A DNA stretch of 64,000 nt from positions 1-64,000 of the IMG/VR virus record IMGVR_UViG_3300042894_002769. One strand, 5' to 3'. Shown here in pieces: positions 38,066 through 59,827 of this stretch. The notes under the pieces are model-generated. The model did not search any database and was not told the origin of the DNA. It saw nothing but the letters and a program-made list of their open reading frames with translations. Every line of letters starts with the position of its first letter. Positions within the stretch are counted from its first letter, which is position 1. The translations under genes were made by a program, and so were the position numbers. The stretch is from a virus.

Positions 38066-38137
38066 AGCTCTGCAGCTCTGCAGCTCTGCAGGTGTTCAGG
38101 TAGGTGTTCAGGTAGGTGTTCAGGTAGGTGTTCAGGT
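38066..38137. repeat. Short tandem repeats: 8-mer x3 and 12-mer x4
   Basis: AGCTCTGC occurs three times in tandem (38066-38089), followed directly by four tandem copies of AGGTGTTCAGGT (38090-38137). The array lies in the gene-free stretch 37822-38504, next to the iteron array. CTGCCGG occurs on both sides. Confidence 0.85.
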
Positions 38138-38146
38138 CTGCCGGAA

Positions 38147-38333
38147 TTTTGACGCGTCAATTTTACAGCGCGTCAATTCTCTGGCATGTCAACTTTCTGA
38201 CGCGTCAATTCTATGACGGTGTCAATTTTCTGACGCGTCAATTCTATGACGGTGTCAATTTTCTGACGCGTCAATTTTGTGACGCGACAATTTTTTGACG
38301 CGTCAAATTTCAGGCGCGACAATTTTTTGACAC
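38147..38333. repeat. Iteron array, about 12 copies of a 16-17 bp unit centred on TGACGCGTCA
   Basis: Units follow one another without spacers, typical unit TTTTCTGACGCGTCAA; variants include TTCTATGACGGTGTCAA and TTTTGTGACGCGACAA. The core TGACGCGTCA is a 10-bp palindrome. Head-to-tail iterons of this length next to a replication-clamp gene are typical of replication origins or partition sites; a dense operator array is the alternative. Confidence 0.85.
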
Positions 38334-38440: not shown

Positions 38441-38488
38441 ATTAATTGCCTTGGTTAGCCTTTAGCATTAATTGCCTTGGTTAGCCTT
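38441..38488. repeat. 22-bp exact direct repeat containing the AAGGCTAAC word
   Basis: Identical 22-bp copies (begin ATTAATTGCC, end TTAGCCTT) lie at 38441-38462 and 38467-38488, four bases apart, between the clamp stop and its terminator. The second copy overlaps a micro-ORF ATG AAG GCT AAC CAA GGC AAT TAA (38491-38468, minus). Confidence 0.85.
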
Positions 38489-38504
38489 CATGCCGTTAGC
38501 CTTC

Positions 38505-39542
38505 TTAGTGACGTTGCCCCATTGCAATATTGTACCCGTTAGCCTTCTCGATGACTGCACACATTTCGGTAAAAATAATTTCAACGTCGTTAGCCTTCTC
38601 GATTGTGAGTAAATCAATCAGATAGTTACATTCAAATCTACCTATAATTTGGATGCCCTTAGTATTATTGTCGTGGTTAGCCTTTACGCTAAACAGCGTT
38701 TTCTTTTCGTGGTCAGCTATGTCGTGAAATAGTAAATCGTTTCCATCCAGTATCACAGTCACACCTTTTGACTTATCCACTGATAATAAATTACTGAGGT
38801 TAGCCTTCAATCCTTTAAGCATTTCCTTTCTTTTAACTGTCACAGTGGTTAATTTATTATTGACATATTGCGCCATCAACCTGTCAAAGCTAGGATATTT
38901 AGAGTTGATTGGCGTTACATACAAGGCAAAGTCAACACCATTAAATTCAATAACGCTCAAATTACCTTCTTTTGTGTACCTGACGTAAACATCGACATCG
39001 GCATCAATAATGCTTAATATTTCGACGGCATTCCTTGGTATGAGTACATCAATTAAATGTTTGCATGGAACATCAAGTTTATCTGTTACCAGTCTATAGC
39101 CGTCACTCACAGCGGTGTTGATAGACTTATCTGTAAACGATACGAATTGACTGTTTAAGTAATACCTAACATCAGCTTTACCCATAACAGTCAGGTAGGC
39201 TTTGTTAAACAATTTTGCGGCATTTACTTCACATATTTTAGCCGTCACAGGTGATTCGAGTATGAGCGACTCAAAGCGTTCTTTAAGTACATCCGCAAAA
39301 ACTGTTGATACCGTTAAACTCGGATAAACCGCATTTAAATCCTTACCGTGCATAAGCGCATCAACAAATGAAATTACTGACGGCTTAATGTTATTATTGT
39401 TCTCTGAAAAGTCATTGCGTACCACTAAAGATACCTCAGGACTTGTTGCAAAAACGTGTGATTCTGTTAATAGTACACCGTCACCAAAAATATATTTTTT
39501 GCCAACTGATTTAATAAATTTACTGATAATTTTAGATTTCAT
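38505..39542 (-). CDS. DNA polymerase sliding clamp-like protein (DnaN-like)
   Basis: 345 residues. The middle and C-terminal thirds follow the bacterial beta-clamp pattern: SDGYRLVTDKLDVP ... DVLIPRNAVEILSIID ... FALYVTPINSKYPSFDRLMA ... VTVKRKEMLKGLKANLSNLL ... IGRFECNYLIDLL and a C-terminal AVIEKANGYNIAM. The N-terminal domain is more divergent. Length is close to the usual 366. It would encircle DNA and tether a polymerase; whether it recruits a phage or host polymerase cannot be seen here. First-transcribed promoter is at 41.27 kb. Confidence 0.72.
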   Translation of the reverse strand: MKSKIISKFIKSVGKKYIFGDGVLLTESHVFATSPEVSLVVRNDFSENNNNIKPSVISFVDALMHGKDLNAVYPSLTVSTVFADVLKERFESLILESPVTAKICEVNAAKLFNKAYLTVMGKADVRYYLNSQFVSFTDKSINTAVSDGYRLVTDKLDVPCKHLIDVLIPRNAVEILSIIDADVDVYVRYTKEGNLSVIEFNGVDFALYVTPINSKYPSFDRLMAQYVNNKLTTVTVKRKEMLKGLKANLSNLLSVDKSKGVTVILDGNDLLFHDIADHEKKTLFSVKANHDNNTKGIQIIGRFECNYLIDLLTIEKANDVEIIFTEMCAVIEKANGYNIAMGQRH

Positions 39543-39599
39543 TTTAATTCGCCCGTGATTTTAATTAGTGTTTACTTTATTTAACCATTTCGCTTTTAT

Positions 39600-39995
39600 T
39601 CAGCAAATAACTTTAACGATTTCGTAACCGTAATCATGCGCAATTTCAAGCAATGTTCGTTCAATTCTACCTTCGCTAATTGAACTAAATGCGCTAAATC
39701 CTGCATTTTGGACAGCTTCCTGAGCTGCGACATTGTGCTTATTGTATCCGCCACCGCTAGCCTTACCGTTGCCTTTTGAATAAATACCGTTTTCAAAATC
39801 GCCCAAGCCATAAGCGTGAAAGTCAGCATAGATTGTACTGGCAGAAGCACTGCGCCCACTATAGATACCCAGTTCCATAATGGTGCGAATTTCGTTATCA
39901 ACTAACGCGACAACAACATACTTTTGCACGCATTCTTTATCAGAATGATTTTGAAAACGAGGTGATACTTTTGATACATCGAATTTAATAGCCAT
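39600..39995 (-). CDS. Small phage protein, GGGYNKHNVAAQEA-type family
   Basis: 131 residues from MAIKFDVSKVSPRFQ; GGAGATTAAC before ATG 39995 decides the start over an upstream one. The segment GNGKASGGGYNKHNVAAQEAV followed by AGF fits a common phage family where GSAGGYGYHKxSAAxxEA is conserved. Usually unannotated; no enzymatic motif is established to my knowledge. Confidence 0.65.
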   Translation of the reverse strand: MAIKFDVSKVSPRFQNHSDKECVQKYVVVALVDNEIRTIMELGIYSGRSASASTIYADFHAYGLGDFENGIYSKGNGKASGGGYNKHNVAAQEAVQNAGFSAFSSISEGRIERTLLEIAHDYGYEIVKVIC

Positions 39996-40114
39996 GTTAA
40001 TCTCCAAATAATGTGGTAAAGTGTAAGTAAGACAGCGTGTTTTCTCGCTGTTGCTGAGTAATATACCGACATTTTTAAAAAACAAAAGAAATTTTTAAAA
40101 ATTTTTAAAATTTT

Positions 40115-40609
40115 TTAAATTTGAAAAACTAAAGATTCGTCAATTTCTAGGCTATCTTCTTGTTTTATAACGTCAATTAGTGATTTATGATAAGTAACTT
40201 TACCGTCGCGTCCTTTGCGCAATAGGTGCAATCCTTGCGCAGTCGCGTCGCCTTCAGCATCAGCAATGCCTAAATCACAAAGAAGGCTTTTTATCACATT
40301 GCTTTTAACACGGGTCTTAATGCGCAAGGTGGCGAAACTCACAAAGTCAGGTGATGGCGTGTAATCGACATTTTTATGAAATACGCTAGCCGGTTCTCGG
40401 TCTTCAGGCAGCGGTCTTCTGTCAGATTTGTCGAAATTGGTACGCATTGCCCTGCTATTTCGCTTTTCACGTTGTTCGTTAGCCTTTTTAGCGTCAAGAA
40501 ACTTCTGGCGCTTAGGTGACACCTTATTGCTTGGGATTAGCCTTTTACCGGTTTTGTCAAAAACAGATTTGATTTCAGTCAACGGTTTGAGTTTATCGTA
40601 TTCAGACAT
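40115..40609 (-). CDS. Basic protein of unknown function in replication block
   Basis: 164 residues from MSEYDKLKPLTEIKSV. ATG 40609 with GAGG at 9 bases is preferred to a TTG at 40630. The N-terminal half is strongly basic (SPKRQKFLDAKKANEQREKR) and probably disordered; the C-terminal half has VKSNVIKSLLCDLGIADAEG, a small helical domain. Nucleic acid binding is possible. Spacing to neighbours is short, one operon. Confidence 0.6.
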   Translation of the reverse strand: MSEYDKLKPLTEIKSVFDKTGKRLIPSNKVSPKRQKFLDAKKANEQREKRNSRAMRTNFDKSDRRPLPEDREPASVFHKNVDYTPSPDFVSFATLRIKTRVKSNVIKSLLCDLGIADAEGDATAQGLHLLRKGRDGKVTYHKSLIDVIKQEDSLEIDESLVFQI

Positions 40610-40613
40610 GCCG

Positions 40614-41216
40614 TTAGACCTCGCTTTCAATATAATTGAGAACTATCACAGCAGCAAAGATTAACAATGACCATTTTCGATACCCGCTAATTGTCGCAAT
40701 ATACGGTGATGCGTTAGCCTTAGTTAGCCTTCTGGTTAAACCTTCGTTAACTATCTCAATTAACCCCATGTCACATAAATACTTATCGATGGTCGAGCGT
40801 TTCACGCCACCTAGCACCGACATTTCAAAGACACTCAGATAGCCTTCGTTAAAAGATGTCGTTAGCTGCTCTGCATAACTTTCGTCAATGTCAATGAAAA
40901 GTAAATACTTACTGATATAGGTATCAACAAAATGAACATCTATGTCAGTTGCTGTCGAATCGAGTTCCAGTAACACATTGCTCACAAGGTCTTTTCCATA
41001 ACCAATTACTGAGATGATTGCAATATCAACTGGGATTTCATAATTTTTAACAGCTCTGCGCCCAATGCTCTCAATAGTGTAATCAAGTTTTCTAATTAGC
41101 CTGTCACTGATTAGCCTTTTTAACATAGCGTTGTAATCGGAACTGGTTAGCCTTTCTTTTTTATTAGCGTACTTATTGAACGCTTTAAGAAACGTAAATA
41201 CGTTAGTTTTTTTCAT
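40614..41216 (-). CDS. Unknown protein with possible winged-helix C-terminal region
   Basis: 200 residues starting MKKTNVFTFLKAFNKYANKK. The segment EMSVLGGVKRSTIDKYLCDMGLIEI followed by RRLTKANASPY looks like a helix-turn-helix with a wing, then SGYRKWSLLIFAAVIVLNYIE. First gene after the promoter at 41.27 kb; the AAGGCTAAC word precedes the ATG at Shine-Dalgarno distance. It may regulate the divergent region, but this is inference. Confidence 0.6.
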   Translation of the reverse strand: MKKTNVFTFLKAFNKYANKKERLTSSDYNAMLKRLISDRLIRKLDYTIESIGRRAVKNYEIPVDIAIISVIGYGKDLVSNVLLELDSTATDIDVHFVDTYISKYLLFIDIDESYAEQLTTSFNEGYLSVFEMSVLGGVKRSTIDKYLCDMGLIEIVNEGLTRRLTKANASPYIATISGYRKWSLLIFAAVIVLNYIESEV

Positions 41217-41258
41217 GTCGTTAGCCTTTAATGCAGTGAATAGAATCGACGCTCGCTA

Positions 41259-41287
41259 AGTGTATCACTACCAAAACAGTCAGTCAA
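41259..41287 (-). promoter_or_regulatory. Promoter of the minus-strand replication operon
   Basis: Minus strand TTGACT (41287-41282), exactly 17 bases, TACACT (41264-41259). Predicted start near 41252, about 36 bases before the first ATG. Confidence 0.65.
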
Positions 41288-41520
41288 AAAAAAATCTCAT
41301 GAATTTTGCACGAGTTTTAAAATTTTTTTGAAAAAAAAAATAAAAATAATTTTTCACCATCCGCACCCATTGCCGACGACCCCTAAAAAATCCGATTTTG
41401 TTGTAAAAATACCACTGATGTTTAGCCGTCTAAGTAGTATTTTGTCCGTAAGTATTTGATTTATATACATATTTTCAAAAATATTTCTTGCAAAATGAAT
41501 AAAATCAATAGCTTGCCATG

Positions 41521-41592
41521 TTAATATATATGTTATATATAATATATATATTATATATATTTATATATAGTATATACTATATATAAATATAT
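41521..41592. repeat. TA-rich palindromic segment in the divergent region
   Basis: An almost pure A/T run contains a perfect 38-bp palindrome (41555-41592, centre TAT|ATA flanked by AG/CT) and neighbouring shorter TA palindromes. The gene-free region 41217-42153 also holds A- and T-tracts. Such DNA melts or extrudes easily and fits a DNA-unwinding element or transcription boundary. Confidence 0.75.
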
Positions 41593-42009
41593 TTTTAATC
41601 GTTACACGATTTACCCCTATACACCCCGTTTTGCTCATCAGTACCTACCACAGATTAGCCCTTCCTGTCAAGCATTATTTTTACTCTATTTTCCACCTAT
41701 CCGAAAAAAAAAACGACTACCCACTTTTTTAAGCACCACTTACCAATAGTGTACAGCTGGTCTACATATCATTTTGCCAATTCAAAAAAAGTCTGTGACG
41801 TTTTTTAATCGACCCTTTTTTAACCTATATTTCAATACGTTGCCACAAAGCCTAAATTTGCATTTTTAAAAACCCCCTTATAACTTATTGATTTATAAAA
41901 ACAACAAGTTTCCACTTCACCTCAATTTTACCAGCTCTCTCATAAAAATTTTCTGATACCACCCACTATTTCCACCATCCCTACCGACCCCCATTTTTAA
42001 ATTAAAAAG

Positions 42010-42038
42010 TTGCACACAACTTTCTACAATGTTAAGCT
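42010..42038 (+). promoter_or_regulatory. Weak candidate promoter for first plus-strand genes
   Basis: TTGCAC (42010-42015), 17 bases, TAAGCT (42033-42038). Predicted start near 42045, just before a structured leader. Neither box is strong, so an activator or another site is possible. Confidence 0.3.
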
Positions 42039-42053
42039 CTTTATCGACCCTGT

Positions 42054-42112
42054 GAGCGATAATGTTCCGCCATGAACATCTCTACCTATTGAAATTTATC
42101 AATACATCGCTC
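42054..42112 (+). promoter_or_regulatory. Predicted three-way-junction RNA leader upstream of 42154 gene
   Basis: GAGCGAT (42054-42060) pairs with ATCGCTC (42106-42112). Between them are two hairpins, ATGTTC-CGCCAT-GAACAT (42062-42079) and TATTGA-AATTTA-TCAATA (42087-42104). All stems are perfect. The element ends 41 bases before the ATG. Confidence 0.55.
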
Positions 42113-42153
42113 TCAGCGGTCACTTTACTAATTTCAACAGGACAACCTTACTA

Positions 42154-42780: not shown

Positions 42781-42926
42781 AGAAAATTCGCAAAAGATAC
42801 AAAACACTACGAATTTACGAATCGGATTACCCCAATTTGTTAAAAATTAAAAAATCTCTTAATTTACCTTCGCTATCGGACGCACTGCGATTTGCAATCA
42901 GTACCACTATGGAAATGCGGAAATGA
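42777..42926 (+). CDS. Small ribbon-helix-helix protein
   Basis: 49 residues, starts ATG at 42777 inside the stop of the preceding gene, and ends overlapping the primase ATG (ATGA). MKKIRKRYKTLRIYESDYPN then LKIKKSLNLPSLSDALRFAI is the classic CopG/Arc ribbon-helix-helix layout: a basic strand, then two helices. Probably a transcriptional repressor or DNA-binding partner of the primase. Confidence 0.65.
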   Translation: MKKIRKRYKTLRIYESDYPNLLKIKKSLNLPSLSDALRFAISTTMEMRK

Positions 42927-45502
42927 ATGACCAACTTAACAATTTGCCGCAAGAATTACGACTATTGCCACAATGGTGCTACACGTCACCTGACCGCAAT
43001 GGTAAATACAAAATTCCAATGGGTAGAAATAAAACCTATGCTGCGAGCAATGACCCCGATACATGGTTAACCTTTGAAGATGCAGTTAGCCTGTCTGAAG
43101 GAAAACCTATTGGCTTTATGCTGTCAGCTAATGACCCCTATGCTGTGATAGACATTGATACGGGATATGCGTTTTGCGATATTGCAGGACAATTGCAACC
43201 CGACTTAGCCTTAATGCGCTATGAGTTTCATCAGCGATTATTGTCGTATTTGAATACCACGCCTACTTATAGCGAGATTACGCTGTCAGGCTACAATTAT
43301 CACACTTGGCATCGATTGCTTGATATGTCGGAGATATTTGCAGGGATTCGTGTATCGAGAATGCCTATTAAATTGCCTGATGGAACGCACCATACGCTTG
43401 ATAATGCGGGGATTGAAATTTACTCTAAGGAGCGATTTATTGTCTGCACGGGTAATTCGATTTCACTAGATACCATTAGCCTTGCGTCTACTGAGTTTTA
43501 TACGTTTTTGGAAAAAGCGCGTAAATTGACGACAAGAGCCGGTGGTAGCAAAGCCAGTGATTCTAAACCGCAAGTGGATACGGATGTGACCGTCCTGTCG
43601 AATTTACTGGGCATTGACTTTGATGAGGATTCTTATGTGAGAGCCATTGATGTTGTGACAGCAATTACCACTGAAGGCAATGCTTTTGAGGAAACCTATC
43701 GTGAGTTATTTCGCGGTGATATGACGGATTATCCATCGCAAAGTGAAGCTGATTATGCGCTGATAATTGCTATAGCCAAAATATCCCCTAATGACCCGCA
43801 GGTATTTAGGTTGTTTCGATTATCTGCACTGGGTAAACGTCCAAAGGCTATGGACAATGATGTCTATTTGCAACGCTCTGTGAATACGGCTAGAGCTGAG
43901 ATTAAGCGCGAAGAATCTGAAATGAATGAAGTGCGTGACTTTATCAATTCGACGAGAAAAGCCAAGGAGAAAAAACCTCAGCCTCGACTATTGACACAGA
44001 CTGCGACGAAATCTGCGATATTGGATGTACATGGTAAGCCACTAGTGTCTACTAGAGTACGTCAGCATAAGAAAGCCATTATGCCTGATATTTCGGATAT
44101 TGTGCCTGAAGGAACTGACCTCAAATTGGTGGGAACTGAAAATGAACTAGACTATCCGCCTGCCTTAGCAGGTGAGCATAGCAATTGGCTAATGGAACAT
44201 GCGCCACAACCAATGGCAGAAGCCTGTATTGTGAACACGTTGTCACTCTTGGCAGGTATTGGCGGAGCGTCGTATAAAATCAACCCCATTAGACCGACGG
44301 GTATTAACAGCTATTTTGTTTTGATGTCACTGTCTGCGACAGGTAAAGATATTTTGCATTCGGGCATGGGGTATATTAAAAAATCGATGGCAGATGTTGC
44401 GCCAGAATTGATAGATTTTATTGATAATAATCAATACAAGTCACAAAGTGCCATTATGCAAGCCATTGATGTGCATAAATTTGATAGCTTTTTGCATTTG
44501 ATTCCTGAATTTTCTAAATTATTGCATAGTGCAAATACTGTGTCACACTACGCAGAACTGTTAAACTTTACCTTATCGGCATATACGGCTTCGAGTGACG
44601 GTAATGAATTGCAAGGTGTGCGTAAGTCGGGATTTGCGACAGGTAAAGCTGGTGCAGAACTTAAACCAAGACCTAATGGCTTTGGGTATTCGTTTTGCGG
44701 TGAATGTACTGAAAATGATTTTAACTCAGCGCTCAATAATGGCATGCTAAGAGATGGCAAATTGTCGCGCTTTATCTGCGTTAGGGGTGATGACTATTTG
44801 ACCATTGGCAACCCCACAAATCCGCATTTACCGCCTAAGTTGAAACATAACTTAGCTAAAGCGATTAAATTTAGTGCTAGTGGTCAAAAAAGAATGATTC
44901 ACATGACCGATAGGGCGCAGCGACTTGACCAAGCATATTATGTGCTGATGTCAGATACGCTTAACCAGCATCGCTCGGTTGATGATGACCCTATGCGCGT
45001 TGTTTATAACCGCGCTAGGCTTAAAGTGTGGCGTGTTGCAGGTAGCCTAGCTATGCTTGAGAATCCTGATGCGCCTATTATCACAGAAGAACAATATTTG
45101 TGGGCAATGGGTCTTGTGAATCGTGATGTGTCAATAATGTCATACAAAATTATTAATCGCATAGTCGGTGATGGCGCGGATGACCATGACAGAATGGATA
45201 AGGTTAAGAGCCTAATTGATGATTTTACGGTTTATGGTTACACGCACAAAGAACACGACGTGCTGTATGGCAATGCGCTTGAGAAACATGGCGTAGTGGC
45301 ACGCAGGGCATTGCGTGAAAGTGTCAAATATTTGCCGATATTTAAAAACCCGCGCACGGGGAAATCGGATGTAGCTTTGATTGATAGTGCAATTAAAAAT
45401 CTTGTTTCAGAAGGCGTGATTAAATATTACGACGCTAAGGCAAGTAATGCTAATTTCGGTATTCGTACCGAGTGTTATTCACTGCAAGGAAAAGTAAAAT
45501 GA
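42923..45502 (+). CDS. Primase-helicase (PrimPol-like N-terminus, DUF3987 C-terminus)
   Basis: 859 residues. N-terminal third is a PrimPol/archaeo-eukaryotic-primase type domain: GFMLSANDPYAVIDIDTG with catalytic-type acidic residues, TLSGYNYHTWHRL (sGxGxH-like) and GIEIYSKERFIVCTGN. The middle is a linker (EKKPQPRLLTQTATK). The C-terminal half is the DUF3987 helicase-like ATPase (YFVLMSLSATGKDILHSGMG as divergent Walker A, then SQSAIMQAID, FGYSFCGECTENDF). It would prime and unwind DNA at the phage origin. Head of a long co-directional operon. Confidence 0.85.
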   Translation: MNDQLNNLPQELRLLPQWCYTSPDRNGKYKIPMGRNKTYAASNDPDTWLTFEDAVSLSEGKPIGFMLSANDPYAVIDIDTGYAFCDIAGQLQPDLALMRYEFHQRLLSYLNTTPTYSEITLSGYNYHTWHRLLDMSEIFAGIRVSRMPIKLPDGTHHTLDNAGIEIYSKERFIVCTGNSISLDTISLASTEFYTFLEKARKLTTRAGGSKASDSKPQVDTDVTVLSNLLGIDFDEDSYVRAIDVVTAITTEGNAFEETYRELFRGDMTDYPSQSEADYALIIAIAKISPNDPQVFRLFRLSALGKRPKAMDNDVYLQRSVNTARAEIKREESEMNEVRDFINSTRKAKEKKPQPRLLTQTATKSAILDVHGKPLVSTRVRQHKKAIMPDISDIVPEGTDLKLVGTENELDYPPALAGEHSNWLMEHAPQPMAEACIVNTLSLLAGIGGASYKINPIRPTGINSYFVLMSLSATGKDILHSGMGYIKKSMADVAPELIDFIDNNQYKSQSAIMQAIDVHKFDSFLHLIPEFSKLLHSANTVSHYAELLNFTLSAYTASSDGNELQGVRKSGFATGKAGAELKPRPNGFGYSFCGECTENDFNSALNNGMLRDGKLSRFICVRGDDYLTIGNPTNPHLPPKLKHNLAKAIKFSASGQKRMIHMTDRAQRLDQAYYVLMSDTLNQHRSVDDDPMRVVYNRARLKVWRVAGSLAMLENPDAPIITEEQYLWAMGLVNRDVSIMSYKIINRIVGDGADDHDRMDKVKSLIDDFTVYGYTHKEHDVLYGNALEKHGVVARRALRESVKYLPIFKNPRTGKSDVALIDSAIKNLVSEGVIKYYDAKASNANFGIRTECYSLQGKVK

Positions 45503-46677: not shown

Positions 46678-46931
46678 GTAAAATTAAAACTGGCGGTGCA
46701 GCATTTCCAAGTGGTGAGTCGTACAGTGTTAATGGTGCGATAAATCAAAAAGCGCCATTACACCAAGGCATGACCTTGCGCGATTATTTTGCAGCAAAAG
46801 CCATGCAAGCTGAAATAAATGAATACTCAGGCATACCGACGACAAAACAAGAATATTTGTTTGAAATTGCGGTAAACGCTTATGCTATGGCTGATGCAAT
46901 GCTTAAAATGAGGGATGTGGAAATTGAGTAA
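46674..46931 (+). CDS. Small phage protein with MTLRDYFAAKAM motif
   Basis: 85 residues: TGGAAFPSGESYSVNG ... GMTLRDYFAAKAMQAE ... AYAMADAMLKMRD. This is a small family seen in many phages, with AFP near the start, G-MTLRDYFAA in the middle and YxxADAMLxxR at the end. Function not established. Overlaps the preceding gene by 4 bases. Confidence 0.7.
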   Translation: MSKIKTGGAAFPSGESYSVNGAINQKAPLHQGMTLRDYFAAKAMQAEINEYSGIPTTKQEYLFEIAVNAYAMADAMLKMRDVEIE

Positions 46932-51571: not shown

Positions 51572-53893
51572 ATGAAAATTACACCTTCAAAACATCAATT
51601 AGCAATTTTTGACCATATTCAAAATTCTAAAAACAATCTGCTGGTACAAGCCTGTGCCGGTAGTGGTAAGACGACTACTATTTTAGGTTGTCTTGAATTA
51701 ATACCGCCATCAGAATCTGTTTTATTATTGGCATTCAATAAATCTATTGTTGAAACATTAGTCAAACGCGCTCCGACAACAGCAGATATTAAGACGTTCA
51801 ATTCTGTTGGCAATAGCCTTGTGACTCGATATATGGGTAAAGTCACACTGACACCTAATAAGATTCGTGAAATCGTTTACAGCTATGGTCTTGAAAAAGA
51901 AACTGGCGAAGCCTTAATCAAAATTATTGAGCTATGTAAGCGATTAAACATTGCTCTCGATGGTGGCTGTGCGACGCTTTTAACACCTGAGATAATGGAG
52001 TACATAATCTCACGATTCGGCATCCCTGTTCCTAAAACATTCAATCGTGAAAAGCTATTTAACCTAGTCAGCGACGGTCTATTGCGAAACATTTACATGG
52101 CTGTTGAAAACAAAATCATTGATTACGATGACCAAGTGTTTTTGCCAATTTATCGTGGTTGGGAATCGGTGCGCTACGATTGGGTATTTGTTGATGAAGC
52201 TCAGGACATCTCGCCAATTAGAACAGCATTGCTAGAAAAGCATTTAAAGCATGATGCTCGTATGATTGCTGTTGGAGATAAGTGTCATCCAGTTGGAACA
52301 AAAGTAACCAGATATTCAAAAAATGGTGAGAGATATGAAACAAATATTGAAGACCTTGAAATAGGCGATATGGTTACGACATACCGTACTCATGATTGTG
52401 CATTTAGAAACCAAGGTAATGTGGTAAATGGTAAAACAATAAGACCGTTTGAAGGTGAGCTAGTAATTGTCACAACGATAAGCGGTGAGGAAAGTAGATA
52501 TACGCCAAATCATATATGTTTAGCTAATTTTGAATCGCATCGAAATAAACATGCTGTGTATTTAATGCGAAAAGGTAATCAATATCGCATAGGTAAGTGT
52601 TCAATGTCATATCATAGGGCAAGTGGGTTATCTGCTAGAATGCGCTCAGAATCTGCTGAAGCTATCTGGCTTTTAGACTTATACGACACTGAGAATGAAG
52701 CATTTTTTTGGGAGCAAGCTATCTCAGGTAAATTCGGAATACCTCAACTAATGTTCGACTCTAACAAAATGAATCGTGAACACGCACATCGACTTTTAAG
52801 TAAAGCGTGGGAGTTTATAGGTGATAATAGCGATAGAGCTAATGTCATACTTCGTTATTATAAACGTGACATAAATTACCCATTGTTTGATATTAAAAGC
52901 AAAGCGCAAATGACAATGAAGCGTCCAATTCTGGTAAGAGCTTGTAATTTGATAGATGGCACTAGAGTCCTCCCGTTTAAAAAAGATAGAACTTCAACTC
53001 ATGTTAGAAAAATAGAATGGGAAGAAATTAAAATCAGTTATGCGGAATATCGAGGTGATGTTGTATCACTTGATGTATCGGGAAATAGTTTATATGTTGC
53101 CGACAATATTGTGACACATAATTGCCAAGCAATTTATGGCTTTACCGGCTCAACAGCGAGAGCTATGGACGAATTAAAGAGCAAATTTAACTGTGACCAG
53201 CTACCATTGTCAGTGAGTTATCGATGCCCTGTAGCTGTTGTTGCAGAAGCTGCTAAACTCGTCCCAGTGATTGAGCATGCTGAAAATGCGGAAGAAGGTT
53301 CAGTAACCGATTTAACGCAAATCGAAGCTAAAATTAAAATTTCAACATTAAGTGAGTATGACATTATACTATGTCGGACTAACGCGCCATTATCAGCATT
53401 GGCATGGAAGTTAATTCAGGCAAGGATACCTGTGAGTATTCTTGGTCGTGACATTGGTAAAAATTTAATGGTACTGATTGATTCATTTAGAACCAATGAC
53501 ATTATTGAAATGACAACCAAATTAAAAGCGTGGCTTAATTTGCAATTGGATAAATATGCTGATAATGAAATGATGCAAAGTAACGTGCTTGACCGATACC
53601 AAAGCATCATGTGTTTTGCCGAAGATAGTCTTGATGTCCCATCAATGAAACGGACTATTGAAGAATTATTTTCTGATGATTTAAGTGATTCAAAATTGGT
53701 TTTATCGAGTATTCACAAGTCAAAAGGTATGGAATTTAACAATGTTGCAATTTTAAATCCTGAATTAATACCTATCAAATATGCCAAGCAGGATTGGCAA
53801 TTGGAGCAAGAACGTAATTTAAAATATGTAGCGATTACACGAGCGATAAAATCACTGGTATATTTCAAAGATACGCAACTCACAAGTAATTAG
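51572..53893 (+). CDS. SF1 (UvrD/Rep-type) helicase precursor containing an intein
   Basis: 773 residues. Helicase motifs: Walker A CAGSGKTT at 28-35, Walker B VFVDEAQD at 205-212, motif III VGDKCQAIYGFTG (split by the intein), SYRCPV after it, and C-terminal LSSIHKSKGMEFNNVAIL and LKYVAITRAIKSL (motifs V and VI). Removing residues 238-517 leaves a 493-residue helicase, a short UvrD-like enzyme. It probably unwinds DNA in phage replication or repair. The upstream promoter-terminator and micro-ORFs suggest tight control of expression. Confidence 0.92.
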   Translation: MKITPSKHQLAIFDHIQNSKNNLLVQACAGSGKTTTILGCLELIPPSESVLLLAFNKSIVETLVKRAPTTADIKTFNSVGNSLVTRYMGKVTLTPNKIREIVYSYGLEKETGEALIKIIELCKRLNIALDGGCATLLTPEIMEYIISRFGIPVPKTFNREKLFNLVSDGLLRNIYMAVENKIIDYDDQVFLPIYRGWESVRYDWVFVDEAQDISPIRTALLEKHLKHDARMIAVGDKCHPVGTKVTRYSKNGERYETNIEDLEIGDMVTTYRTHDCAFRNQGNVVNGKTIRPFEGELVIVTTISGEESRYTPNHICLANFESHRNKHAVYLMRKGNQYRIGKCSMSYHRASGLSARMRSESAEAIWLLDLYDTENEAFFWEQAISGKFGIPQLMFDSNKMNREHAHRLLSKAWEFIGDNSDRANVILRYYKRDINYPLFDIKSKAQMTMKRPILVRACNLIDGTRVLPFKKDRTSTHVRKIEWEEIKISYAEYRGDVVSLDVSGNSLYVADNIVTHNCQAIYGFTGSTARAMDELKSKFNCDQLPLSVSYRCPVAVVAEAAKLVPVIEHAENAEEGSVTDLTQIEAKIKISTLSEYDIILCRTNAPLSALAWKLIQARIPVSILGRDIGKNLMVLIDSFRTNDIIEMTTKLKAWLNLQLDKYADNEMMQSNVLDRYQSIMCFAEDSLDVPSMKRTIEELFSDDLSDSKLVLSSIHKSKGMEFNNVAILNPELIPIKYAKQDWQLEQERNLKYVAITRAIKSLVYFKDTQLTSN
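52283..53122 (+). mobile_element. Intein (280 residues) in helicase motif III
   Basis: Starts at Cys238 (CHPVGTKVTRYSKNG, block A) and ends VTHN before Cys518 (block G). Block B is SRYTPNHICLA with the Thr-x-x-His pattern; block F is YRGDVVSLDVSGNSLYVADN. The insertion splits VGDK/CQAIYGF, a site where splicing must be exact for activity. Between B and F lie about 170 residues with no LAGLIDADG motif; they contain KHAVYLMRKGNQYRIGKC and FFWEQAISGKFGIPQLMF, reminiscent of GIY-YIG/T5orf172 nucleases. Confidence 0.9.
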
Positions 53894-58190: not shown

Positions 58191-59045
58191 ATGCTAGATA
58201 AAAAATTAGTAGTGACTTTTTCAGGAGGTGAAACATCAGCAATGATGACATATCATCTTTTGAAAAAATATAAAACTATGGGATATTCTGAAATAGTTGT
58301 TATATTTGCAAATACAGGTCAAGAAAATGAAGAAACTTTAATTTTTGTTAATAATTGTCAAAAAATATTAAAATTTCCTGTAATTTGGTTGGAAGCCGAT
58401 GTTGTGCATGAATTTAGAAAAGGAACTAAGCACAAGATTGTGAATTTTGAAACTGCCAGTAGAAATGGCGAACCTTTTGAAGAAGTCTGTAAAAAGTACG
58501 CAATACCGTGTCATACATCAAGTCATTGTACAAGAGAATTAAAATTACACCCAATAAAATCATATTTGCGAGAAATTGGATGGAAAAAAGGAATGTACGA
58601 TACGGCTGTTGGGATACGATTAGATGAAATGCACAGAGTATCCATAAAAGCTATGGATGAAGGAGCTATTTATCCATTAGTAGATTGGAAAGATACTAAG
58701 AATACTGTAAGAGCTTTTTGGGAAAAAATGCCATTTAGGTTGAATTTACATGAACATCAGGGAAATTGTAAATGGTGTTGGAAAAAATCAATGCGCAAAT
58801 TACTTACTATTGCCACTGAAAACCCTGAGTATTTTGATTTTCCAAGAAAAATGGAACAAAATTATGCAAAACCCCATAAACAATTTTTTTTTAGAGGTTA
58901 TAAAAGTTCAGATGACATTATTGAATTATCAAAACAGCCTTTTGAAAAGTTTACAGACAATTACCGTGTAACAATTGCTAATTTTGACCCAATATTAGAT
59001 GCCGCAGGTTCATGTAGTGAATCGTGTGATATTTATAGCCAATGA
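58191..59045 (+). CDS. PP-loop enzyme of the PAPS-reductase/adenine nucleotide hydrolase superfamily (first copy)
   Basis: 284 residues. PP-loop SGGETSAMMT at 11-20 after a hydrophobic strand KLVVTF; VVIFANTGQENEET at 36-49 is the second strand and motif typical of the family. Cys107, Cys113 (PCHTSSHC) and Cys193, Cys196 (NCKWCWKKS) are pairs that could bind metal or act in sulfur transfer. It differs strongly from the adjacent second PP-loop protein. Substrate unknown; DNA or nucleotide modification is a possibility. Confidence 0.78.
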   Translation: MLDKKLVVTFSGGETSAMMTYHLLKKYKTMGYSEIVVIFANTGQENEETLIFVNNCQKILKFPVIWLEADVVHEFRKGTKHKIVNFETASRNGEPFEEVCKKYAIPCHTSSHCTRELKLHPIKSYLREIGWKKGMYDTAVGIRLDEMHRVSIKAMDEGAIYPLVDWKDTKNTVRAFWEKMPFRLNLHEHQGNCKWCWKKSMRKLLTIATENPEYFDFPRKMEQNYAKPHKQFFFRGYKSSDDIIELSKQPFEKFTDNYRVTIANFDPILDAAGSCSESCDIYSQ

Positions 59046-59062
59046 TTAAAAAGGAACAGTAG

Positions 59063-59827
59063 ATGATACATGTAATTAGTTTTTCAGGCGGTATGGGTAG
59101 CTTTGCCGAAGCAAAGTCATGTGTTGATAAATTTGGTAAAGAGAATACAAAACTATTATTTGCTGACACGCTCATGGAAGACGAAGATTTATATCGATTT
59201 AAAGATGAATGTGTTGAGTTTTTAGGTTGTGAATTAATCACATTAGTGCAGGGCATGACACCATTTGAAATATTTAAAAAAGAAAAGTTTATGGGAAATA
59301 GTATGGTTGACCCGTGTTCAAAACTTTTAAAACGAATTCCATTAAATAATTGGTTTACTAAAAACTACCAAATAGATGAAGCACACATGCACTTGGGTAT
59401 TGATTATTCGGAAAGCCATCGATTGGTAAAAGTAAAAGAAAGAATGTCGCCATATATATATCGGTCTACGTTAGTTGAAGATGGGCGAATTATTAACAAA
59501 GATTATAGCGAACAATTCGGTATCAAACGTCCAAGATTATATGATTGGAAACTAGGTCATAATAACTGCGGTGGGTTTTGTATTAAAGCAGGACTTGGAC
59601 ATTACAAAGCGCTTTATGAAGCTAATCCTGAAAGATATAGAGAGTTTGAAAGTAAAGAACAAGAAGTCTACGACGTAATAGGCGCAACGTATCCGTTTTT
59701 AAAAAAGACGGAAAATAAAGTGCTTAGAAGATTAACGCTTAAACAGTATAGGGAAGAATTTTTAATGCAAGGTAAAGTAACAGCATTAGAAAGCCAAGAA
59801 TATGGCGGATGCGGTTGCGCAATCTAA
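59063..59827 (+). CDS. PP-loop enzyme, second adjacent copy
   Basis: 254 residues. PP-loop SGGMGSFAEAKSC at 8-20, then LLFADTLMEDEDLYRF. Cys85, Cys169, Cys173 (NNCGGFCIKAG) and a C-terminal GGCGCAI. Sequence similarity to the upstream enzyme is limited to the ATP-binding core, so they are probably paired activities rather than a recent duplication. AAGGAAC precedes the ATG. Only 17 bases separate the genes. Confidence 0.75.
   Translation: MIHVISFSGGMGSFAEAKSCVDKFGKENTKLLFADTLMEDEDLYRFKDECVEFLGCELITLVQGMTPFEIFKKEKFMGNSMVDPCSKLLKRIPLNNWFTKNYQIDEAHMHLGIDYSESHRLVKVKERMSPYIYRSTLVEDGRIINKDYSEQFGIKRPRLYDWKLGHNNCGGFCIKAGLGHYKALYEANPERYREFESKEQEVYDVIGATYPFLKKTENKVLRRLTLKQYREEFLMQGKVTALESQEYGGCGCAI

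Follow-up and report, generated by a model that had tools for sequence, protein, structure and literature searches.

To our knowledge, most PrimPol-helicase phages have no mapped origin. The polymerase of Nitratiruptor phage NrS-1 primes at the template site TTTGGTTA, an 8-nt recognition site (PMC8718748), two mid-genome copies of which have been mentioned and suggested as a possible origin (PMC7102993). The self-loading helicases SaPI Rep and SCCmec Cch2 bind origin iterons (PMC7581432), and a review of iteron plasmids reports that iteron position and orientation matter (PMC4980987). Here we compare with these systems a 9-base word, AAGGCTAAC, found in a 64,000-base window (the whole stretch of DNA analysed, 37.8% GC) that makes up bases 1-64000 of a 79,225-base IMG/VR tailed-phage record. 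The portal, capsid and terminase genes of this phage are encoded on the minus strand and its replication genes on the plus strand.

Consistent with the original observation of twelve copies in a single orientation, AAGGCTAAC has 12 exact copies between 38454 and 41228, all 12 on the minus strand, and no further copy or similar density in the whole 79,225-base record. Dinucleotide shuffles give an expectation of 0.51 copies in 64 kb and none reached 12, while in 40 third-order Markov genomes, for which 9-mers with at least four G or C were counted in clusters per 3 kb, the densest cluster of any 9-mer held 3-4 copies, as opposed to the 12 observed. A genome-wide look for similar words revealed that only tandem arrays otherwise cluster comparably. 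The copies share a core of about 11 bases, including a purine before the word and G or C after it (with one exception to each), and the flanks of most copies differ, which speaks against the mobile miniature cassette suggested earlier.

Eight of the 12 copies fall in three genes, where the word reads KAN in six cases and RLT in two; the other four are non-coding, matching the spread over intergenic DNA and two reading frames described originally. Selection for a KAN peptide is ruled out because the frames are mixed and some copies are non-coding. When codons were exchanged among synonymous positions and the copies recounted per gene, the clamp-like gene had 4 exact copies against 0.25 expected (0/1000 shuffles), gene 40614 had 3 against 0.19 (1/1000) and gene 40115 had 1 against 0.025 (25/1000). 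Together with a related lineage that has this word arrayed in the same place (see below), these codon-preserving shuffles support the view that a nucleotide word has been selected or has spread. Two copies had been placed at ribosome-site distance from a start codon; both do lie 3 bases before an ATG (41220 and 38495), but the ORF that follows the latter has only 7 codons. On the minus strand at 38441-38491, after the clamp-like gene, the tiny ORFs MKANQGN and MLKANQGN overlap at TAATG, each with the word at its core.

The clamp-like gene (38505-39542), beside the word zone, is a second, divergent member of the processivity-factor family phrog_947; the other phrog_947 protein of the phage (record 68756-69724, L009 8757-9725) occupies the usual place next to DNA polymerase B. 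Family searches with the 40115, 40614 and clamp-like proteins gave no recognisable DNA-binding family, a model of protein 40614 alone was discarded (mean pLDDT 34), and neither the clamp-like protein nor the primase had a close relative in exact-peptide searches.

Allowing one mismatch adds eight copies, again all on the minus strand, and extends the zone to 43.5 kb (Table 1). Instead of the two near copies noted originally, four lie inside the interval of the exact copies and four more at 43066-43483, within the plus-strand primase gene, where synonymous shuffles give 0.26 minus-strand near copies (4 observed; 0/500 shuffles) and where the other strand has 0. Since these copies stay on the minus strand in a plus-strand gene, the orientation of the word follows the DNA and not the transcripts. 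They also lie beyond the divergent control region that had been thought to bound the zone, which therefore crosses it. Two-mismatch variants within the zone are only slightly above background, indicating little decay and no broad halo of degenerate copies.

Table 1. Word copies, neighbouring features and comparable arrays. Coordinates are those of the window unless another sequence is named.
Feature	Coordinates	Strand	Basis and remarks
Tandem array AGGTGTTCAGGT x4	38090..38137		Adjoins word zone
Tandem array around TGACGCGTCAATT	38150..38331		32/33-bp unit; adjoins word zone
Word copy 1	38454..38462	-	Exact match; non-coding, after clamp-like gene; 26-bp tandem with copy 2
Word copy 2	38480..38488	-	Exact match; non-coding
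Word copy 3	38495..38503	-	Exact match; non-coding; 3 bases before ATG of 7-codon ORF
Word copy 4	38538..38546	-	Clamp-like gene codon 333, KAN
Word copy 5	38589..38597	-	Clamp-like gene codon 316, KAN
Word copy 6	38676..38684	-	Clamp-like gene codon 287, KAN
Word copy 7	38799..38807	-	Clamp-like gene codon 246, KAN
One-mismatch copy AAGGCTAGC	39756..39764	-	Mismatch scan
Word copy 8	40478..40486	-	Gene 40115-40609, KAN
One-mismatch copy AAGGCTAAT	40536..40544	-	Mismatch scan; variant common in L068/L072
Word copy 9	40713..40721	-	Gene 40614-41216, KAN
Word copy 10	40723..40731	-	Gene 40614-41216, RLT frame; 10-bp tandem with copy 9
One-mismatch copy AAGGCTATC	40838..40846	-	Mismatch scan
One-mismatch copy AAGGCTAAT	41110..41118	-	Mismatch scan
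Word copy 11	41146..41154	-	Gene 40614-41216, RLT frame
Word copy 12	41220..41228	-	3 bases before ATG of gene 40614-41216
AT-rich divergent intergenic region, TATATA core	41229..42153		Sequence, GC skew, repeat scan
Primase-polymerase fused to MCM-like helicase	42923..45502	+	phrog_3022 match, structure model, Foldseek
One-mismatch copy AAGGTTAAC	43066..43074	-	Inside plus-strand primase gene; synonymous-shuffle test
One-mismatch copy CAGGCTAAC	43085..43093	-	Inside primase gene; synonymous-shuffle test
One-mismatch copy AAGGCTAAG	43204..43212	-	Inside primase gene; synonymous-shuffle test
One-mismatch copy AAGGCTAAT	43475..43483	-	Inside primase gene; synonymous-shuffle test
NrS-1 AAGTGTAAC array	AB746912.1 17062-17378 (L465 8063-8378)	both	Exact matches, spanning about 310 bp
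L418 TGTAGTGGA clusters	L418 6724-7112 and 9892-9991	mostly +	Non-coding stretch; five matches in first 130 bases of primase ORF

The AT-rich intergenic region, the likely origin or unwinding region, yielded no iteron set of its own comparable to the word zone in a repeat scan. The GC-skew minimum of the window falls in the 42-44 kb bin, a position confounded by gene direction.

The primase gene belongs to the phage primase family phrog_3022 (E 1.8e-107), which is common in Queuovirinae-like phages, and a profile built from six of its members hits the solved 7ola primase (E 1e-24) as well as the NrS-1 primase (E 1e-16). A model of the protein, for which 23 sequences were aligned (mean pLDDT 75), has Foldseek matches to the NrS-1 PrimPol and helix-bundle domain (NrS-1 N300) over its N-terminus (E about 1e-10) and, over its second half, to MCM helicases (E about 1e-4); the catalytic DxD is kept (D77, D79). 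The predicted PrimPol fold and helix bundle are those of an NrS-1-type primase-polymerase, while the last 100 residues, modelled as a small helix-and-strand domain, appear winged-helix-like. We infer that this primase-helicase is the initiator of phage replication. Elsewhere in the window, a UvrD-like helicase gene (51572-53893) has an apparent intein interruption (Pfam Intein_splicing, E 0.0025), and the adjacent genes at 58191-59827 both match PAPS reductase (phrog_424).

A search of about 2.9 million viral contigs, which began with pairs of words and went on to triples at short spacing, gave 13 matches to the triple-word pattern. Two of these (L068 and L072) carry an intergenic, single-strand array of AAGGCTAA[CT]CGCG, with 9 and 7 copies respectively, in the same orientation and place as the word zone of the window. 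The arrays lie upstream of terL on the terL strand, to the left of a long AT-rich stretch that in L072 is followed by a rightward reading frame, as in the window; TTATGCACA sites resembling DnaA boxes occur in the AT-rich part, on the far side of the arrays. Both contigs stop short of the primase gene, so that the array and AT-rich region are what they show. Their terL is 65-67% identical to that of the window, which places them among about 9 contigs that reach at least 65%. Chance is not a plausible source of these arrays, because only 13 contigs matched, the others that were read (L124-L130) are tandem repeats, and these two are among the phage's nearest terminase relatives. The array was absent from the capsid relatives G004, G005, G007, G008 and G011.

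Across the array region, L068 and L072 share about 87% identity and so count as one independent lineage. Between them, whole units of word and spacer have been gained or lost and spacers have changed, whereas the words vary only between C and T at one position; in this single pair, the words thus seem to have been kept while spacers varied, as expected of iterons. The occurrence of AAGGCTAA[CT] in the same orientation and place indicates that the word is conserved, with variable copy number and spacers, answering for one lineage the question of conservation in related phages. CGCG, which trails the words in L068 and L072, also occurs in the TGACGCGTCAATT array of the window. Just upstream of terL, both contigs have ORFs with YLIYKHTSPSGKSYIGQT (L072 4430-6192, L068 1370-3255), which we take to resemble GIY-YIG homing endonucleases. 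When 84,980 genomes were scanned with the triple-word pattern for the word in a host, 104 stretches emerged, none of which, those in Psychrobacter and Shewanella included, was traced to the phage group of the window; those read closely and, by flank similarity, most others are tandem repeats. A host word is accordingly a disfavoured reading.

Phage NrS-1 (AB746912.1) offers the closest comparison among primase relatives. Directly after its primase gene it has 11 exact copies of AAGTGTAAC, 5 on the plus and 6 on the minus strand, and no other in the 15 kb read. The NrS-1 genome contains one exact TTTGGTTA, compared with the two copies mentioned previously, and it sits inside the array as the junction of two tandem AAGTGTAAC copies, AAGTGTAACCAAAAGTGTAACC. 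AAGTGTAAC and AAGGCTAAC are identical at 7/9 positions, which has a probability of 0.0013 in one fixed register; once either strand, shifted registers and some six compared words are allowed for, the likeness would arise by chance in 1-8% of cases, and we therefore treat it as a lead only. The two phages share a homologous PrimPol and helix-bundle N-terminus and a 9-mer array touching the primase gene. They differ in that the NrS-1 array is compact (308 bp) and in both orientations, whereas that of the window has one orientation, covers 3-5 kb and is mostly genic, and in that the helicase half of the window's protein models as MCM-like.

The iterons of NrS-1 and most primase relatives are compact and run in both orientations, and the words of the other relatives are unrelated to AAGGCTAAC. 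Examples besides NrS-1 are pVco-14 (GGTTACGA x8) and Achromobacter phage ART (GGGGCAGA x7), both in an intergenic stretch touching the primase module; two-way clusters also lie beside the primase gene in L447, L449 and L457 (GTTTAATG x8, GGGGATAG x8 and TAGGGTAT x6). Strong word clusters lie to the side of the primase gene in 9/74 loci compared with 7/205 control stretches (p=0.015), at a threshold set once the data had been seen. Single-orientation words upstream of the primase show no family-wide excess (10/49 versus 6/30), and a single orientation is thus not a family rule. One related primase locus, L418, provides a clear parallel with the one-way word TGTAGTGGA (18 plus versus 2 minus matches with at most one mismatch).

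We posit, with a probability of roughly 0.6, that AAGGCTAAC is an origin-proximal, iteron-like direct-repeat recognition word of the phage replication system. The word would then probably serve to dock the phage's own replication enzyme, having spread into genes nearby. Among the options offered originally, the evidence points most to a site recognised in replication or by the primase, and does not support a Chi-like word or mobile cassette. As in iterons, clustered copies of one short sequence lie beside an AT-rich region and a putative initiator gene. The phage initiator, for which the primase-helicase is a likelier candidate than another early protein, would bind the words. In the primase-helicase, the winged-helix-like C-terminus would read them on duplex DNA, or else the helix-bundle domain on a single-stranded template. 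The words would orient the bound initiator, which would help to open the adjacent AT-rich stretch and start synthesis there. Functional copies may also have arisen or been retained inside neighbouring genes, since being translated as KAN or RLT would not impair a replication signal.

Like SaPI Rep and SCCmec Cch2, the locus combines short direct repeats with an adjacent primase-helicase gene, and its PrimPol profile also matches the 7ola primase; their iterons are proven sites that follow the gene within a small intergenic origin, whereas those of the window are candidates. Iteron plasmids of the Rep_3 class likewise have oriented direct repeats beside an AT-rich stretch, but the words described here are irregularly spaced and coding, and a search of the record for a Rep_3 initiator found none. 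The fixed orientation over 3-5 kb, with copies largely in genes, is atypical for iterons.

This orientation favours a first alternative, which we regard as unlikely, namely that the word acts in single-stranded templates to signal priming by an NrS-1-like primase-polymerase and is not a duplex-binding iteron. If one strand of the zone were the priming strand, this would explain an orientation that stays fixed across genes transcribed both ways; the N-terminal model and the published NrS-1 site, which corresponds to a junction of tandem AAGTGTAAC copies (PMC8718748), point in the same direction. Against it, NrS-1 additionally uses a GTG site and carries its array in both orientations, and the 6 copies of TTTGGTTA in the window's phage are scattered and unclustered. 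Slightly more doubtful is a broader version, in which the whole 5-kb zone is a strand-specific priming zone where the PrimPol/MCM-like helicase reads AAGnnTAAC-type words on one strand.

The first leftward gene has a copy 3 bases ahead of its ATG, and most copies lie within the leftward operon, which might instead suggest operator or mRNA sites, for example ribosome sites, for a DNA- or RNA-binding regulator of that operon. This is improbable given that a single real start carries the word while other genes have ordinary ribosome sites, that the L068/L072 array is hundreds of bases away from either flanking gene, and that the near copies in the rightward primase gene are antisense; moreover, no RNA fold was better than those of shuffles and there was no Rfam match. 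Still less probable is neutral spread of a functionless 9-mer by slippage and short gene conversion. Two pairs of copies are indeed local tandem duplicates and two copies have 16 bases in common, but most flanks are unrelated, the L068/L072 words are nearly intact between diverged spacers, and two-mismatch variants in the zone show little of the decay such spread would leave. A partition (centromere-like) or packaging site, which clustered oriented repeats generally resemble, is the most remote of these readings, as a search of the record, which may be incomplete, found no ParA or ParB family match and the small terminase gene lies kilobases away at 46915. Chi and DNA-uptake words are similarly short, oriented and tolerated in coding DNA, but they occur genome-wide, whereas AAGGCTAAC is absent from the other 74-76 kb, which rules out a word of this kind.

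The iteron-like reading of AAGGCTAAC provides a concrete candidate origin word for one PrimPol-helicase phage, with a conserved match in a related lineage. It also draws attention to a probable array (AAGTGTAAC x11) that surrounds the established priming site of NrS-1, whose enzyme has been studied best within the group, so that the biochemically defined site becomes directly testable as part of a larger iteron. Should the 5-kb zone prove to be a strand-specific priming zone, replication starts or lagging-strand primers would lie at defined, codon-embedded sites written one way through genes, and one word class would span NrS-1 and the window's phage. In the phage described here, a replication signal is apparently embedded in protein-coding genes in one orientation.
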